Assembly (NCBI GenBank): GCA_030835405.1
Contig: JAURPG010000026.1
Span: 1-32,509 of the forward strand
Direction: 5' to 3'
DNA: 32,509 bases
DNA from: Gammaproteobacteria bacterium
GTDB taxonomy: Bacteria > Pseudomonadota > Gammaproteobacteria > Eutrophobiales > Eutrophobiaceae
The position numbers and the translations under genes were made by a program. Shown here in pieces: positions 1 through 8,911 of this stretch. The notes beneath the pieces were generated by a model that saw only the letters and a program-made list of their open reading frames with translations, made no database searches and had not been told where the DNA came from. Each line of letters opens with the position of its first letter. Positions within the stretch are counted from its first letter, which is position 1.

Positions 1-100
1 CGTGATTAAATACGAAACACTACAGCAGAGGAGGAAGGAAAATTTAATACTATGTATAAATTAGTGAAACATGACTATAATATGTGAAAGTCTCTCTTAA

Positions 101-589
101 CTTTTAGACCTTTGTGTTCCATATCTTCTGACGACTTACAGTAGAATATATTTTAAACCCATTAACCCAGTAGACTTTATAAATGACATAAAAATTATAC
201 TAGAGCAATATGCAGCTAAGAATATCGGCATAAAAAATAATGAATTAGGAATAGATATTGATCGTCAGCTAATTTCACAACATATAAAAACTATCGGAAT
301 AGATGAATACAAATTAATTCTGAAATCATATGAAAAAGAGGTGCAAGGATATTTTTCCTCTTTAAATAACAATGATATTCAAGATATTAATTCAATTAAT
401 ATGATAATGCATAAATTCAAAGGTACATCATCTACAATTGGTGTTATAGGTCTAGAAAATATTTTAAAAGATGTGAATATAAATGATATTTTAGAAGATA
501 AAGAATTAATAAAATATCTAGAAAAATCACATAAAATATCAATTGGATTAATAGATGACTATTTAAAATCGTTCAGTAGGTATGGATAA
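101..589 (+). pseudogene. Remnant of a receiver-HPt protein, 5' end missing
   Basis: The frame is open from 101 (stop TAA at 98-100) to the TAA at 587-589. Its start reads like the end of a receiver domain: a strand-like VPYLLTT, then YFKPINP with the Lys-Pro pair typical of the last receiver strand. An HPt domain follows, with phospho-accepting His codon at 410-412 in the motif MHKFKGTSSTIG. The helix before that His needs sequence from about 254, so a start at GTG 341 would cut the HPt bundle; there is no in-frame ATG between 101 and 341. The receiver's aspartate part is absent and some residues between the TT and the KP motif seem deleted. Upstream, a purine-rich AGGAGGAAGG (29-38) precedes an ATG at 52 that stops after 11 codons in another frame. 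The TAA overlaps the next gene's ATG. I read it as the decayed 3' end of a hybrid kinase or receiver-HPt gene; a short functional HPt from a non-ATG start is the alternative. Confidence 0.6.
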
Positions 590-1041
590 TGATAGATCTT
601 GAAAATTTACCAGAAGACATAATTTCTGTATTAAAAACTAATTTTGGTGATGATTTTTCAGAAATCGATATACCACCCAGTGCTTTTAAAGCAATGGGTG
701 GTGTTTTGCATCAATACAATCTACTTGATAAAACACTTGTAATGAAATTTCCAGTAAAAGAATCATTTCTAAATCAATTTCGTAATATGAATGGGGGAAT
801 GATTGCTTCCGCAATTGATAATACTTTCGGGCCATTAAGTATGTTAGTTGCCCCTCCAAATTTCACTAGACAATTAGAAGTTAAATTTAGAAAACCAATT
901 CCAGAGTCGCTTGATTATATTTTTGTTCATGCTTATATAAATGAACGTAAAAAGAGACAATTAATTTTATCAGCAAAAGTTTCAGACGAGTTAGGTTGCG
1001 TATATGCAACCGCAAATGCAACACATTGGATCATATCTTAA
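589..1041 (+). CDS. PaaI-type hotdog thioesterase upstream of rpfF
   Basis: The protein has 150 residues, a normal length for a single hotdog-fold acyl-thioesterase of the PaaI/4HBT group. The central-helix motif NGGMIASAIDNTFGPL is at about 68-83, with Asp77 in the position of the usual catalytic acid and the preceding Gly-Gly for substrate carbonyl binding. The basic strand RQLEVKFRKPI follows at 94-104. Such enzymes hydrolyse acyl-CoA or acyl-ACP thioesters in the cytoplasm. The ATG overlaps the upstream stop as TAATG, with AGG at 578-580 as a likely ribosome site, suggesting translational coupling to the HPt remnant. It lies 110 bases before rpfF on the same strand, so a part in releasing or recycling the DSF acyl chain is a reasonable inference. 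The acyl substrate cannot be read from the sequence. It is very AT-rich, like rpfF. Confidence 0.85.
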   Translation: MIDLENLPEDIISVLKTNFGDDFSEIDIPPSAFKAMGGVLHQYNLLDKTLVMKFPVKESFLNQFRNMNGGMIASAIDNTFGPLSMLVAPPNFTRQLEVKFRKPIPESLDYIFVHAYINERKKRQLILSAKVSDELGCVYATANATHWIIS

Positions 1042-1151
1042 ATTGTAAACTGCCTAAGTTTGTATTAACTTATAGTGAATGATTTTATCGTTTTATTATA
1101 TTGGCGATAAAGTTGCGATGTTATTTAAATTAATATTTAGAGGAAGAGAAT

Positions 1152-2060
1152 ATGTTAGAAGCATACAAATTAACTCATGGTGCTCAAATAAGAAACTTAA
1201 AGCAAATATCATTAGATGTCGATCCCAATTATGGTTTAGTTTGGTTATATTTAAAACCAACGCCAAGGCCTTGTTTTAATCCAGACTTAGTTGAAGAAGT
1301 TAGAGCAGTTCAAAGAATACTAGAATCTAATAATGGTCAAATACCATGGAAAGGAAGCATGGTTAAAATTAATTATTTTGTCCTTGATTCATCTCTAGAA
1401 AATATATTTAGCATGGGAGGAGATCTAAGTTTATTTAGACAATTTATAACTAACAAAGATAAAGAAGGGTTTTTGAAATATATAAAAGTATGTATTGAAA
1501 CAATTCATGGTTTTCATGTTGGCTGTAGATTTCCTATTATAACTATTGCATGTGTCCGTGGCGACGCTATGGGTGGAGGGTTTGAAGTTGCATTGAGCTG
1601 CCAAGTATTAATAGCCGAGAAAAATATAGAAATGGGATTTCCTGAGGTTTTATTTAACTTATTTCCAGGCATGGGTGGTTATCACTTCTTATCTCAAAGA
1701 ATACCAGTAAAGCAAGTGGAAAGAATGATGTTAAATGGTAAGAAATATAAAACTAACGAATTATATGACATGGGTGTTATTGATAAATTGGCAGATGAAG
1801 GATGTGGGCGTGAGGCGGTATATTCATATATTAAAGAAGCAACAAAATATCGAAATTCATTCCATGCATTAAAAAATGTTAGAGAAAAAGTACATCCTAT
1901 AATTCATGATGAATTATTAGAGGTATGTAAACATTTTGTGGATGTTGCTATGAACATAAGCGAAAGAGATCTTAAGTTAATGAACAGGTTAGTTAAGGCT
2001 CAAGACAGGATGATGAATAGAAAAGTACTGCCTGAAATGAAAACAAAGCTAGCTAGCTGA
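1152..2060 (+). CDS. rpfF: DSF synthase RpfF (crotonase family)
   Basis: This 302-residue crotonase-fold protein matches the RpfF group closely. RpfF makes the cis-2-unsaturated fatty-acid signal DSF from 3-hydroxyacyl-ACP, acting as both dehydratase and thioesterase. Visible features are the oxyanion-hole segment SMGGDLSLF (87-95), the second glycine cluster GDAMGGGFE (137-145) and the segment MGFPEVLFNLFPGMGGY (161-177). The two catalytic glutamates are Glu145 and Glu165, spaced by 20 residues exactly as in Xanthomonas RpfF. The C-terminal helix LMNRLVKAQDR, also RpfF-like, is at 276-286. The ATG is preceded by a good ribosome site, AGAGGAAGAG at 1139-1148. The gene ends 5 bases before the convergent end of rpfC, so signal synthase and sensor sit back to back. 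Neighbours supply a thioesterase but no rpfB-like acyl-CoA ligase. The identification rests on motif spacing and context and is strong. Confidence 0.93.
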   Translation: MLEAYKLTHGAQIRNLKQISLDVDPNYGLVWLYLKPTPRPCFNPDLVEEVRAVQRILESNNGQIPWKGSMVKINYFVLDSSLENIFSMGGDLSLFRQFITNKDKEGFLKYIKVCIETIHGFHVGCRFPIITIACVRGDAMGGGFEVALSCQVLIAEKNIEMGFPEVLFNLFPGMGGYHFLSQRIPVKQVERMMLNGKKYKTNELYDMGVIDKLADEGCGREAVYSYIKEATKYRNSFHALKNVREKVHPIIHDELLEVCKHFVDVAMNISERDLKLMNRLVKAQDRMMNRKVLPEMKTKLAS

Positions 2061-2065
2061 TAATT

Positions 2066-4549
2066 TTATTTCAATGCGGAAATTTCAAGGTTATCTAAAT
2101 AGGAATTTAAGGCTAACGTGGTCTGGTCATGCAGATTCATTAATGTGCTGGATTGTATAGATATCGAGTCATAGTTGCTGCTGAGGGATTGTTTATAGAT
2201 ACTTGCTGCCATTTTACCTAATTCGGTAGCCCCTATACTTTGAGCACTACCTATCAAGGCATGTGCATATTCGGCAAGATCATGATAGTTGTTATTATTG
2301 TGAGATATAATAATAGAATTTATTAATTTCTTGCTATCAACAAGAAATACCTGGGTGAGCTCATGCATGAATTTCTTGCTATCTCCTAAAAGTGCGAGAT
2401 TATCTAATGTTGCAACATCAATAACATCAGCATCATCCTTGTGTTGTGGGTGTACAAGTTTCAGGCTGGGTTTATTAATGGAAGATCTAGTGTTCACTTC
2501 ATCTAAATTGATGAATGAGTAAGCTGTATCAAGAAGCTTCTCCCTTTTTATGGGCTTGGTCAAGTATGCATCTATACCTAAATCACAACATGCCTGTTCA
2601 GCATCTTTAGTTGCATCTGCAGTCAGCATGATTATTGGTATTTGTTTTGAACTCGGCGTCATAAATTTATATAGTTTTATGGTTTCAGGACCATCCATAT
2701 CAGGCATGTGCATATCTAAAATCATGATGTCGTAATCAGTTTCTTCAATAGCATCCAGTACAAGTTCCCCATTCTCGAACACATCGGCGCGGTGTCCAGC
2801 AGACTCTATATATCGCTTGATAACTTTTTGGTTGGTAATATTATCTTCACCAATAATAAATTTGAGTTGAACACCGTTTAATATTTCGGCATTCGCATCA
2901 GAACTATCTTTTTGCTTTAATCTTGCATTGTGAAAAGAAAATAAATGGTTTAGTTGTATATGGTTTACTGGGGATTCCAGGCTCGAGAAATACCAGGTGT
3001 TTGATATATCCTCACAGGCATCATCATTATTTAATAGAACTATGCATGTTTCAGATGAATCTGTGATCTCATGTATTTCATTTGCAAACGATTTGAAAGA
3101 TTCACCAACACCATTTTTATCAACGACAATAAAATCATATGCTTTATTATCGTTGAAGTCCTTAATGATTGATTTTGAATCAGGTGCTGTAATTGCATGC
3201 TCCCAGAAGATATCATTTTTGTCGAGAAAATTAACTAACCTGGAATGGTTATCACCATAGGTGGAAACTAGCAATACCTTTAAACCAGAAAAGCTCTGAT
3301 TATTATCAGGAGTATGGTTAAAATCCAATTCAAACCAAAAATTACTTCCATCACCTAATTGGCTTATTACTCCAATATCACCACCCATCATTTCAATAAT
3401 GTTTTTTGCAATTGATGCACCTAGCCCGGTTCCACCGTAGTTTGAAGAGATGCTCTCATCTGCTTGAATAAACTTGTCGAAAATGGTTGATTGAGCATCA
3501 TCTGCAATACCAATTCCAGTATCTTTGATTTCGTATCGTAAACGGGATTGTCGGCCTGTTGTATGTATACATTTTACAGATATATCAATATCACCAATTT
3601 TTGTGAATTTAATTGAATTTCCAATTAGGTTTATCAGTACCTGTTGTAAAAGCTTTTCATCGCCGATTATATTTCCGTTGATATCAGATGACATATGTAG
3701 CCTGCAGTTCAGTCCTGTCTTTTCTGCCAGGGGTTGCATAGTGTCAAGGGTTGTGGATAGTAGGGAGAATAAACTGAACTGGTTATGTCTAATTTCAGCC
3801 TTTCCTGTTTCGATCTTGGAAATATCAAGGATGTCATCAATTAAATTCAGGAGTGCTTTAGCAGATGATTGTATGGTCTTGACATAGTCATTTTGCTGTT
3901 TATCAAGTGACGTGGTTTCAAGAAGGTCACTCATTCCAATGACGCCATTTAGAGGTGTGCGAATTTCATGACTCATATTCGCCAAAAAAGATGATTTAGC
4001 ATTATTTGCGCTCTTAGCATTTTCAACTGCAGACTCTAATCTTTTTTGTAAAACGCCTATATAAACTGGGAGGACTATCATCGCAAGTAATATGGCAAAA
4101 CTTGCATAAATATGTTCATTCCAAAAAGGACTAATATTAATTACTAATAAGAATCCAAAAATTGTAAATAAAGTATTTATGAATAAATACTTAGTACCAA
4201 AGCGCAGGCCATTACCAAGTATTATCCAGAAATAAATTACAATATAAGGCGCACCTGCTTCATCTGATAAAGCAAGTGCATATGTAGCAGTACCAACGCC
4301 TGTTAATATAGCCAAGAAAAAACGAATTTCGTTGAATTCTCTTTTTATATATGACCAATAAATAAATAATAAACAGCATGGAATTGTTGCTAAAAAGATA
4401 TTGACTACCGCTTCATCTATTGAGTTATTTGCATTTTGAAATTTTGCATAAGCGATGCAAGACAAACAGGCAATTAATCTAATAATTGATTGTTCAAATT
4501 CCTTCCCTATACTTAGAATATTATTATTTAATTTGTGAAAACCATTCAT
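2066..4549 (-). CDS. rpfC: DSF sensor hybrid histidine kinase RpfC
   Basis: This 827-residue hybrid kinase has the RpfC layout. A short polar N-terminus ends in [10 protein letters not shown] (16-25), then about five or six membrane segments span 22-166. HisKA has phospho-His194 in [15 protein letters not shown], and HATPase_c has Asn311, the DTGIGI loop (343-348) and GGTGLG (372-377). A degenerate receiver-like stretch (about 421-545) comes next, then a true receiver with Asp612 in [12 protein letters not shown] and Lys665, and finally an HPt domain with His763 in [13 protein letters not shown]. It should sense DSF in the inner membrane and relay phosphate to RpfG. Xanthomonas RpfC is, from memory, about 100 residues shorter and has a single receiver, so the extra stretch is notable. 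The HPt motif has Ile766 where Lys is usual (H-x-L-K-G). The start is 10 bases after rpfG, without a clear ribosome site, so coupling to rpfG is likely. It converges with rpfF. Confidence 0.92.
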
Positions 4550-4559
4550 AGTAAATAAC

Positions 4560-5630
4560 TTAAAATTTTTCTTTAGTATTGAGAGAGTCGATATTTTTGA
4601 TTAATGCTATTACACACTCTTTATCAAAAGACTTATCTATCTCATCCTTAATAATTCTTATTGCTTCTTCAGTTGAGTTTAGCGGCCTATGATTTCTTTT
4701 GCTGGTCATTGCATTAAATGCGTCTGCTACTGATGCAATCCTGGCTTCAATTGGAATTTGATTGCCTTTTAGTTTGTTAGGGTAGCCTGTGCCATCTATT
4801 TTTTCATGATGATTTAGTGCAATATTTGCAGCAAGATCTAATACTGGAGAATTTCCTAGTTTTAGTAATTCATATCCGTAGGTTGTATGTTGTTTGACCA
4901 TTTCGAATTCGTCTTTTGACAATTCGCCAGATTTTAATAACAGATATGAGGGTAGTTTAACCTCACCAATATCGTGAAGTGGCGCGGCTATTTCTATATC
5001 ATTGCAAAACTTTTGATTCATCCCCATTTCTTTGGCAATTAGCATTGATATCATGCCCATTCTCAGTTGACTGAAACCTTCATGATCGCCCTTTATATCA
5101 ATTAGTTTGTTGATAATTGAAAGGGCACCTTTTTCTCGCTGATGAATGGTCTCATTTGAATTGAAGACAACCTTTTCCAGTGTTTCGGCACGTTCCTTGA
5201 TGATTTTTTGTTGTCTGCGTAATGTGAGTAGATTGCGGCACCTGACTTTACATTCATAATGGTCAATGGGTTTAGTCAAAAAATCTGTAGCGCCGGCTCC
5301 CAATGCTTCGTACATCACAGATTTATCATCAATTATTGTGAATACAATTATTGGCACATCCATGCATTCCGGGATGTTTCTAACCCGTTGTGTGAATTCA
5401 ACGCCATTCATCTTTGGCATTCTGTAGTCAACAACAATCAAGTCAGGTGGTGAATGGCATGTAGCTTCAAGGGCATCTTGAGGTGCGTTAAATGCAGACA
5501 CCTTAATATTATCACCAATACCCTTGATGATATTTTTCATAATGACCCGGCTGGTCAATTGATCATCTACAACATAAACATTAGCCGTAATTGGAAAATT
5601 CTTAGCATCTTTAAATAATACTGTAGCCAT
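4560..5630 (-). CDS. rpfG: Response regulator RpfG, receiver plus HD-GYP
   Basis: The protein has 356 residues. The receiver (about 16-135) has acidic pair Asp22-Asp23, phospho-Asp68 in [12 protein letters not shown] and Lys120 in TKPID. A coiled linker (about 136-165) leads to an HD-GYP domain, the class that hydrolyses cyclic-di-GMP. The domain keeps His219-Asp220 in [11 protein letters not shown], His248, His274-His275, the GYP loop ([11 protein letters not shown], 274-284) and Asp303 in [10 protein letters not shown]. Two usual early ligands seem changed: aligning on Arg190-Met191, the Glu and His of the E-x-G-x-H motif become His183 and Ser187. HDxGK also reads HDIGE, with Glu223 for Lys. 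RpfG is the known output partner of RpfC, and here it is the first gene of an rpfG-rpfC pair. The 82-base leader is AT-rich and includes a weak perfect inverted repeat at 5666-5683. The Rpf assignment is strong; catalytic activity is less certain. Confidence 0.9.
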
Positions 5631-5712: not shown

Positions 5713-6258
5713 TTATTCCCGTTTTAAAAGAACATATACTGCACCTGTTCCACCATCAGATACAGGGCATGAACAATAAGCTAATACATGAGTATTTTCC
5801 TGTAACCATACAGGGATATACTGTTTGATCACAGGCGTTGCGTGTTGTGAACCATAGCCTTTCCCATGAATAATCCTCACACAACCCGGAGCATTAAATT
5901 GATTGATTTGACTAAAAAAAAGATCAAGGGATACTTTTGCTTGATGAATTGTATGACCATGTAGATCCAGTTCAGCAATTACTGGTACTTGTCCTTTTTT
6001 GAGTCTTTTAAATATTCTGTTTTGAATGCCATCGCGTTTGAACATCAGGATATCAGTTGGCCCTATCGTAGATGCATTTTCCGGGAGTATGGCATCGAAA
6101 TATTGGTTAAGCCTGTTTTCGGGTAGATCATTTGATGCCGAATATTTTTTCTTTTTCCTTGGCTTTGACATCAGGACCTTGTCCTGTGGAATGGGTTGCA
6201 CTTTACCAACAGAACTTCTGAACAATTCTATATCATCTTTATGTATTCGCTGTTTCAT
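5713..6258 (-). CDS. Smr-domain protein, SmrA/YdaL-like
   Basis: This 181-residue soluble protein has a basic N-terminal part (RKKKKY near 34-39) and a C-terminal Smr domain from about residue 90. The Smr hallmarks are LDLHGHTIHQAK, then IIHGKGYGS, and finally GGTGAVYVLLKR. The N-terminal pattern of a short acidic helix followed by VQPI, with FKRDGIQ in the middle, resembles the Escherichia YdaL (SmrA) family. Smr domains bind and nick nucleic acids; SmrB in Escherichia cleaves mRNA at collided ribosomes, and SmrA's role is less clear. The intact LDLHG motif argues for a functional nuclease here. It lies between msrQ (53-base gap) and rpfG (82-base gap) on the same strand and may be cotranscribed with either. 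I leave the symbol blank because orthology to SmrA is likely but not proven. Confidence 0.85.
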   Translation of the reverse strand: MKQRIHKDDIELFRSSVGKVQPIPQDKVLMSKPRKKKKYSASNDLPENRLNQYFDAILPENASTIGPTDILMFKRDGIQNRIFKRLKKGQVPVIAELDLHGHTIHQAKVSLDLFFSQINQFNAPGCVRIIHGKGYGSQHATPVIKQYIPVWLQENTHVLAYCSCPVSDGGTGAVYVLLKRE

Positions 6259-6933: not shown

Positions 6934-7875
6934 TCAGTGATATTTAAGCAGATTCATCCCCTCGTACATGGAAGCGACCTGGTCGGCATACCCATTAAAC
7001 ATCAGTGTATCCCTCTTTAAAAATTCACCAATCCTGCGTTCTTTCTTTTGACTCCATCGTGGGTGGTTTCTATTTGGATTAACATTAGAATAGAAACCAT
7101 ATTCTTTGGGTGCAGAATCATTCCAGGAAGTACGAGGTTCATCTTCAACAAAACTTATTTTCACTATAGACTTGATGCTTTTATATCCGTATTTCCAGGG
7201 TACTACCAGGCGTATTGGTGCGCCACTTTGATTTAATAACTCTTCACCGTATATTCCCACGGCAAGAATGGTTAAAGGATTCATCGCTTCATCTATCCTA
7301 AGTCCTTCCCTGTATGGCCACTGAAGAACACGTGAACGTTGACCAGGCATTTCATCTGGCCTGAACACGGTAGTGAATGCCACATATTTTGCATTTGAGG
7401 AGGGTTCAAAGCGTTTTAAAACATTGCCAAGCGGAATACCAACCCACGGTACCACCATAGACCAGGCTTCAACGCAGCGGAGCCTGTAAATTCTTTCTTC
7501 CAGGCGATGAGGCTTAATTAAATCTTCCAGACCGATTTCTCCTGGCTTGTTACATTCACCATCAACCGTTATTGACCAGGGTTTAGGATTAAACCCCCCG
7601 GAATATTTCACCGGGTCTTCTTTTGCAGTGCCAAATTCATAGAAATTATTGTAAGTGGTAATATCTTCGAAATCTGTGAGCTCTTCTTCCAGTGTGGAAT
7701 AGCGGCTTTTGCGGATATCATTCAGTGTCGCGGCATTGGTATTTCCAGCGAGTAAGAGTCCAGAACCGACTATCCCGGTATTAATGGAGGTTTTCAAAAA
7801 TTTTCTGCGTGATAAATAGGTCGATTTGCTGGTGATCTCTGAAGATTTAATATCAGATGGTGTTTTTATAAGCAT
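6934..7875 (-). CDS. msrP: MsrP, molybdopterin methionine sulfoxide reductase (copy 1)
   Basis: This 313-residue protein is a periplasmic catalytic subunit of the MsrPQ system, which reduces methionine sulfoxide in oxidised envelope proteins. The N-terminus carries a twin-arginine signal, [10 protein letters not shown] (Arg23-Arg24), followed by a hydrophobic stretch ending near AGNTNA. The sulfite-oxidase-type core has the molybdenum-ligand Cys134 in [19 protein letters not shown], preceded by HRLEERIY. The segment [20 protein letters not shown] is further along, and the C-terminus [17 protein letters not shown] is typical. It sits directly upstream of msrQ (10 bases) and 79 bases downstream of a second msrP copy, with which it shares most of its sequence including both ends. 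Substrate and partner are inferred from the family. Confidence 0.93.
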
Positions 7876-7954
7876 GCCTGGTTACCTTTATGTATTACTT
7901 GTAGTTTGATTCAGTTAAATAATAAAGTAAGTTACATTAATAAAACCTATCAGG

Positions 7955-8911
7955 TTAATATAATTTTTCTAAATCCATTCCGGAATATAAAGAAGCAACC
8001 TGATCAGCATACCCATTAAACATAAGAGTGTCCTGTTTAAAAAATTTACCAATCCGGCGTTCCCTTGCCTGGCTCCATCGCGGGTGTCTGACCTGGGGGT
8101 TAACATTGGCATAAAAACCAAATTCATCCGGGGCAAATTTATTGAATGTATTTGGTGGCATATCCCTGACAAAATTTATATTTACAATAGATTTGATACT
8201 TTTAAATCCGTATTTCCAGGGCACTACTAACCGAATCGGGGCACCATTCTGATTCAGTAATTCTTCTCCATATAGTCCCGTGGCAAAAATTGTTAGTGGA
8301 TGCATGGCCTCGTCAATTCTAAGGCCTTCAACAAATGGAAATTCATACGCTACCTTGCCGATCCCTGGCATCACATCAGGTTGATAGGGTGCTGTAAATG
8401 CAACATATTTTGCATTGGAATTGGGATTAAATTTCTTGAGAATGTCGGAAAGGGGGATTCCAATCCATGGTATGACCATAGACCATGCCTCAACACATCT
8501 TAACCGATAGATACGTTCCTCCAGTTGATGGGGATTGATGATATCTTCCAGGTCATACTCACCAGGATTATCGCATTCACCTTCAACTTTTATTTTCCAC
8601 GGACTGGTTTGAAAATCACCTGAATAGGCAGCCGGGTCTTCCTTATCCAGGCCAAACTCCGCAAAGTTGTTATAACTTATAATGGATGAATATTTGGTGA
8701 GTTCTTCATCAGTGGAAAAGTCTGTGTTTTTGATGAAATTTTCAATTTTTTCTGCAGCCAGAACCTTACCGCTTTTTAACAGGGAAGCATGTAAAATATA
8801 TAATGATAAAATCTTGCTGCTGGACAATGATATAAATTTTCGACGAGACAGGTAATCCGCTTTGGACGTAATCTCAGATGGTTTTATATCTCTAGCTTGT
8901 TTTATAAGCAT
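7955..8911 (-). CDS. MsrP paralog (tandem copy 2)
   Basis: This 318-residue protein is plainly a paralog of the next gene, MsrP copy 1. The opening MLIKQARDIKPSEITSK differs by few residues from copy 1. It has a twin-arginine signal LSRRKFISLS (Arg23-Arg24), with a less glycine-rich hydrophobic region ending near VLAAEK. The molybdopterin Cys139 lies in [19 protein letters not shown], and [20 protein letters not shown] and [17 protein letters not shown] are conserved. All visible catalytic landmarks are intact, so it should be an active oxidoreductase. Differences cluster between about residues 28 and 75 and in the segment 160-185. It is transcribed first in the msrP2-msrP1-msrQ order and probably shares MsrQ. 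Whether it has a different substrate preference cannot be judged. A 44-base gap separates it from the methyltransferase gene upstream. Confidence 0.9.
   Translation of the reverse strand: MLIKQARDIKPSEITSKADYLSRRKFISLSSSKILSLYILHASLLKSGKVLAAEKIENFIKNTDFSTDEELTKYSSIISYNNFAEFGLDKEDPAAYSGDFQTSPWKIKVEGECDNPGEYDLEDIINPHQLEERIYRLRCVEAWSMVIPWIGIPLSDILKKFNPNSNAKYVAFTAPYQPDVMPGIGKVAYEFPFVEGLRIDEAMHPLTIFATGLYGEELLNQNGAPIRLVVPWKYGFKSIKSIVNINFVRDMPPNTFNKFAPDEFGFYANVNPQVRHPRWSQARERRIGKFFKQDTLMFNGYADQVASLYSGMDLEKLY

Follow-up and report, generated by a model that had tools for sequence, protein, structure and literature searches.

Can a bacterium of a little-studied gammaproteobacterial family run a complete quorum-sensing circuit based on diffusible signal factor (DSF)? 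The question is raised by a window of 32,509 nucleotides (the whole stretch of DNA analysed here, which is contig C5 of its source assembly, starting at base 1), in which rpfF, rpfC and rpfG lie together beside a thioesterase gene. We conclude that this is very probably a DSF-type quorum-sensing locus at its ancestral site between ispF and smr, with synthesis, sensing and output working as proposed below. The gene identities are secure. Overall, the system is a variant of a known one, DSF-type and with a Xanthomonas-like layout; DSF-type rpf clusters outside Xanthomonas are already known and are not what is new here.

Genes for synthesis, sensing and output

The thioesterase gene and the three rpf genes lie where the original prediction had placed them, and their reading frames are all open and intact (Table 1). 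rpfF and rpfC are convergent and exactly 5 bases (2061-2065) separate their stop codons, again as predicted, while rpfG precedes rpfC on the same strand, at a distance of 10 bases. A scan for promoters and terminators gave nothing beyond shuffled sequences.

By Pfam, RpfF is an ECH_1 protein. It passes NF006452, the RpfF-like model of NCBIfam (324 bits, cut-off 177), and its best match among solved structures is 3m6m, the Xanthomonas RpfF (E-value 2e-54). In fact, the four best solved matches are 3m6m (RpfF), 7zq7, 6dgn (RpfF) and 5fus; ordinary hydratases come next, falling to 9e-14. The predicted catalytic glutamates E145 and E165, spaced by 20, are present and do not vary across an alignment of 18 RpfF proteins, and neither do the glycines G89, G90 and G141-143. 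The original prediction had asked whether the crotonase would group with ordinary enoyl-CoA hydratases in a tree. It groups with RpfF proteins instead: in a quick maximum-likelihood tree of 74 rows, 61 RpfF (including 3m6m and 6dgn) split from 13 ordinary crotonases with a support of 100 (Shimodaira-Hasegawa-like approximate likelihood-ratio test, SH-aLRT), and the window protein stands among the RpfF of its own family.

RpfC is a membrane hybrid kinase with an HPt domain, as predicted. Hydrophobic segments lie between about residues 43 and 172, HisKA, HATPase_c, Response_reg and Hpt all exceed their Pfam cut-offs, and the receiver matches the Xanthomonas RpfC receiver that was crystallised with RpfF (3m6m_D, E-value 9e-23). 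Similarity to RpfC input domains was the second point on which the prediction could turn; the input region can be aligned with that of RpfC from many bacteria, Luteimonas and Rhodanobacter among them, and the protein joins the RpfC group in a quick tree that includes other kinases of the source genome. RpfG likewise has the expected receiver and HD-GYP domain (Pfam Response_reg; HD_5, E-value 1.7e-34), with both the HD motif (HDIGE) and an 11-residue GYP motif intact, and among solved structures the HD-GYP protein 4mcw matches it best.

Could the crotonase be an ordinary enoyl-CoA hydratase, and the kinase and HD-GYP protein neighbours unrelated to it? Pfam alone would say ECH_1, and BarA is the name that NCBIfam puts closest to the kinase. 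Such a reading is extremely unlikely when set against the tree support, the RpfF-specific matches, the input motif of RpfC (see below) and its repeated pairing with RpfF: relatives from many families have convergent rpfF and rpfC with rpfG, among them Xanthomonadales, Methylophaga and Alphaproteobacteria.

How would the DSF-type circuit operate? Following the pathway steps described in PMC4504480 and PMC5391125, RpfF would take 3-hydroxyacyl-acyl carrier protein (ACP) from ordinary fatty-acid synthesis and turn it into a cis-2-unsaturated fatty acid, which is released. The PaaI-type thioesterase encoded upstream may help to free this signal or clear related acyl thioesters. The accumulated fatty acid would then be sensed by the membrane input region of RpfC, which would relay phosphate from HisKA to receiver to HPt and on to RpfG, whose HD-GYP domain would degrade cyclic di-GMP (c-di-GMP). 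GGDEF proteins are encoded elsewhere in the source genome, so c-di-GMP is plausibly made. In this clade the sensor motif of the receptor appears to have changed, and a second RpfC-like receptor would once have been present and is broken in the source genome. What the sequence shows is which genes these are, their domains and catalytic residues, the conserved site, the restriction of the thioesterase to one clade and the break in the second kinase; we infer the whole of the biochemistry, what the signal looks like and what the thioesterase does.

The gene order had been thought to differ from that of Xanthomonas. In fact, the reverse is true: an rpfGHC operon convergent to rpfF is the Xanthomonas layout (PMC4504480), and only rpfB and rpfH are absent locally. 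Compared with Xanthomonas campestris, where rpfB-rpfF converges on rpfC-rpfH-rpfG, the window encodes RpfF, RpfC and RpfG homologues of the same domain make-up and has an rpfF convergent to an rpfG-rpfC operon. It differs in the lack of rpfB and rpfH, the PaaI-type thioesterase upstream of rpfF, the change of three of five DSF-sensing residues in RpfC and the remnant of a second RpfC-like kinase. No rpfB acyl-CoA ligase was found in the locus, and AMP-binding matches number 9 elsewhere in the source genome. The clusters of rpfF, rpfG and rpfC reported outside xanthomonads, in Methylophaga, Leptospirillum, Thiobacillus and Methylobacillus (PMC4504480), share the same three genes outside Xanthomonadales. 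A Methylophaga locus (L087) also has rpfF convergent to rpfC-rpfG, but its RpfF is about 38% identical to that of the window and no thioesterase was found at that locus. The Burkholderia rpfF-rpfR system (Burkholderia DSF, BDSF) shares an RpfF homologue and c-di-GMP output, whereas its receptor is the soluble PAS-GGDEF-EAL protein RpfR, and Burkholderia-type RpfF form a separate branch of the RpfF tree (6dgn with Paraburkholderia, Yersinia and Pantoea rows).

Table 1. Features at the rpf end of the window, with the basis of each assignment
Feature	Position	Strand	Basis or remark
IS3-type element end (3' end of transposase OrfB and terminal inverted repeat)	1..145	+	boundary approximate
Second RpfC-like hybrid kinase, 3' remnant (receiver end, HPt), pseudogene	146..589	+	boundary approximate
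PaaI-type hotdog thioesterase, 150 aa	589..1041	+	near-cut-off 4HBT and AF2 model match
rpfF, DSF-type synthase, 302 aa	1152..2060	+	NF006452, 3m6m match, tree
rpfC, membrane hybrid kinase with receiver and HPt, 827 aa	2066..4549	-	Pfam, 3m6m_D, input alignment, tree
rpfG, receiver and HD-GYP response regulator, 356 aa	4560..5630	-	Pfam Response_reg and HD_5, 4mcw
smr-domain gene, conserved flanking marker, outside the circuit	5713..6258	-	Pfam Smr

A thioesterase next to rpfF

What does a thioesterase do beside a DSF synthase? Its sequence matches are weak: 4HBT scores 19.1 bits, just under the cut-off, and THEM4 gives an E-value of 0.002. The AlphaFold2 (AF2) model, built from only four sequences (predicted local distance difference test, pLDDT, 74), matches PaaI-type hotdog thioesterases in Foldseek, best of all 2pim (E-value 1e-9; template-modelling (TM) scores 0.71/0.80). 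The model thus indicates a hotdog fold of the PaaI type. Like PaaI and THEM-type thioesterases, the protein shares this fold and has an aspartate in the active-site helix (D77, invariant in the four sequences); it differs in being about 20% identical to the solved members and in having Asn or Gln where the HGG motif usually has its His. A further difference is that, within the order searched, it never occurs apart from rpfF: a profile search found it in 4 of 53 genomes, each time directly upstream of rpfF, and the four genomes make up one RpfF clade (support 99). The original prediction had set a hotdog thioesterase in the place of rpfB. It was right on both the presence of the one and the absence of the other, and the arrangement turns out to be specific to this clade; rpfB linkage is not strictly defining, and in Xylella and Burkholderia too rpfB is unlinked (PMC4504480).

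RpfF itself has thioesterase activity, which RpfB counteracts by re-activating free acids (PMC4504480). A hydrolase at the place of the ligase might be a chemically opposite helper. The thioesterase was gained once, in one clade, and its linkage to rpfF may also be due to chance. One could go further and suppose that RpfF makes no DSF-family signal at all and that its main task, shared with the thioesterase, is the release of free fatty acids. RpfF proteins do act as thioesterases on a broad range of acyl-ACPs (PMC4504480, PMC4517397) and a further thioesterase adjoins rpfF here, but both dehydratase glutamates are invariant and rpfF is kept beside an RpfC-type sensor across many families, and we hold this explanation to be very unlikely. 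RpfF as a putative synthase of a cis-2-unsaturated signal is the reading we retain.

Another fatty-acid enzyme is built into the DSF locus in a sister group of the family, where a fatty-acid desaturase (PF00487, E-value 2e-27) lies between rpfF and rpfC, directly downstream of rpfF (L048:9977-11059, L049:9985-11019, L050:9988-11022, L052:9938-10768, L074:9920-10993).

A second kinase, an old site and repeated loss

The original prediction started the locus at position 341. The genes within were correctly drawn, and the start falls inside a feature that had gone undescribed, the remnant of a second RpfC-like kinase (about 146-589). The open reading frame (ORF) at 101-589 has weak matches to the C-terminal parts of TorS and ArcB, and the position of 146-589, between ispF and the thioesterase, corresponds to that of an intact 782-aa hybrid kinase in a congener, G001 (L037:10472-12820). 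This intact kinase is 29% identical to RpfC and has HisKA, HATPase, receiver and a marginal HPt; its input region carries NEINQSLIR, in which E19, Q22 and R26 are kept. In the source genome, the end of another contig, C68, reads ispF, then the N-terminal part of the second kinase with an in-frame stop, then the start of an OrfA of the IS3 type, the other end of such an insertion sequence (IS). By comparison with G001, C68 and C5 would be neighbours. The central part of the kinase was not found elsewhere in the source assembly.

The first 145 bases of the window are assigned to an IS because of an element in a second congener, G002: window bases 5-140 match the end of an IS there (L164:10990-10855) with 84.6% identity across 136 bases, and the ORFs of that IS match rve (PF00665) and HTH_Tnp_1 (PF01527). 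The inverted-repeat score alone is marginal against shuffles, and when the source assembly was searched for further copies of the IS end, only the contig end itself turned up. Together, these sequences indicate that an IS3-type element destroyed the second RpfC-like kinase in the source genome. Elsewhere, some rpf loci contain at least two RpfC-like genes or pieces of input domain (L074:11104-17488; L076:10144-14199; L051:9958-15094), so extra RpfC-type receptors recur outside the genus.

How old is the locus? The usual order in the family is ispF, rpfF convergent to rpfC, rpfG and smr, followed by msrQ, msrP or purL, with pyrG-kdsA-eno-ftsB-ispD upstream of the site in family relatives. smr adjoins the rpf genes in many members and adjoins ispF where rpf has been lost; counting strong matches, rpfF is present in about half of the sampled family genomes (19 of 37). 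The RpfF and RpfC trees both unite the window with G001, G021 and G031. The fixed site and the congruent placement of the two proteins thus argue that the system is old and mainly vertical in this family, and they disfavour a recent horizontal acquisition. The six conserved ORFs upstream in relatives (about 553, 272, 427, 100, 236 and 161 aa) were first suspected to be a dedicated fatty-acid cassette; the idea was dropped, as they read as pyrG, kdsA, eno, ftsB, ispD and ispF.

Loss of the rpf genes inside the genus is graded. In G002 (L164), an IS of the type seen in the window joins an N-terminal remnant of the second kinase to an rpfC broken near codon 325, and the thioesterase, rpfF and the remaining rpfC are gone while rpfG is intact, an IS-linked deletion. 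G003 (L165) keeps only 54 codons of rpfG, and G004 (L163) has a clean 187-bp junction from smr to ispF. Further afield in the family, rpfF of G025 (L040:9007-9834) has an in-frame TAA and no rpfC nearby, probably another loss. The output partner rpfG is lost or unlinked in some relatives: L035 (G031), L073 (RIFCSPLOWO2_12_47_11), L048 (G028) and L049 (G017) have rpfF and rpfC, no rpfG in the locus, and smr directly after rpfC. Beyond smr, two tandem diverged genes and a third lie at 6934-8911 on the minus strand, which we take to be MsrP-like and MsrQ-like, respectively; the tandem pair is also found in G001, G002, G003 and G004. L076 (NZ_VCCH02000095.1) is titled Mycobacterium sp. KBS0706; its RpfF groups with alphaproteobacterial ones and the organism name is probably wrong.

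A changed sensor, with possible decay or a possible dialect

Is the circuit still at work? Several findings count against it. RpfF scores 221 bits on the strict RpfF equivalog NF053515, whose cut-off is 550. Three of the five genomes of the genus are without rpfF, so the circuit is dispensable. Finally, of the residues R15, D17, S18, E19 and Q22, which are essential for DSF sensing in Xanthomonas RpfC (PMC5391125), the window RpfC keeps two, E19 and Q22 (SIGKEFEQ, within a 12-residue sensor stretch), and R15, D17 and S18 are changed. Thus, the complete set of synthesis, sensing and output genes that had been announced is there, and on the sensing side it is complete only with these reservations and with the second sensor destroyed.

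The sensor motif R-x-D-[ST]-E-x-x-Q itself appears to be conserved well outside Xanthomonadaceae. Most collected RpfC N-termini, across families, read R-x-D-[ST]-[ED]-x-x-Q-x-x-x-R, where the pattern used to list them itself requires E/D and Q/M and misses some, possibly started at the wrong codon. RpfC of G031 and G021 likewise keep two sensing residues (VKGDEFEQ, QRGDEFEQ); more are retained in that of G001 (KINSEFEQ), and the RpfC of G012 (L046), also in this family, has RxDSE. Tests of these residues were confined to Xanthomonas, and variation is seen in other homologues of RpfC as well, so the changes lower the claim that the same signal is bound and leave the claim of homology as it was.

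These changes could also mean that the locus is decaying, its genes still open and its circuit losing function in the genus; the loss of the second sensor and the erosion of the receptor motif would be signs of this. The IS in the second kinase, the truncated or deleted rpf genes of G002, G003 and G004, the motif reduced to E19 and Q22 and the long end branch of the window RpfC (0.93, against 0.07-0.35 within its clade) would all fit. We nevertheless consider decay unlikely. The thioesterase gene and the three rpf genes are intact. Between the source genome and G002, where synonymous sites are close to saturation, the ratio of nonsynonymous to synonymous differences (pn/ps) is 0.16 in rpfG and 0.23 in the kinase part of rpfC; neighbouring genes have a similar 0.12-0.28, and we count this in favour of a working circuit. 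In addition, the altered RpfC stretch (16 residues) is identical in G002 although the first 66 rpfC codons are only 59% identical between the two genomes, which favours a motif that is altered and maintained. The N-terminal part of rpfC has the highest pn/ps measured, 0.41, and this weighs against maintenance.

Judged from sequence, what appears new here is the PaaI-type thioesterase upstream of rpfF in exactly four genomes that form one RpfF clade, an RpfC whose altered sensor motif is the same in a congener, a second RpfC-like kinase that is intact in one congener and IS3-destroyed in the source genome, and the loss of rpfF in three of five genus genomes, once through an IS-linked deletion. 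It is conceivable, though we hold it only tentatively and think it doubtful, that the signalling chemistry has shifted in this clade, the thioesterase altering the released acyl chain or thioester and an RpfC without R15, D17 and S18 reading a different fatty acid. If so, the clade would use a DSF dialect of its own, and at one time it would have had two receptors of the RpfC type. The locus would extend DSF signalling to a gammaproteobacterial family that has been little studied, where it occupies a fixed ancestral site, and a single genus would supply intact, broken and erased DSF loci for a natural comparison. Given that the sensor motif is conserved so far outside Xanthomonadaceae, receptors with an altered motif, paired with an extra thioesterase, would allow direct tests of receptor specificity.

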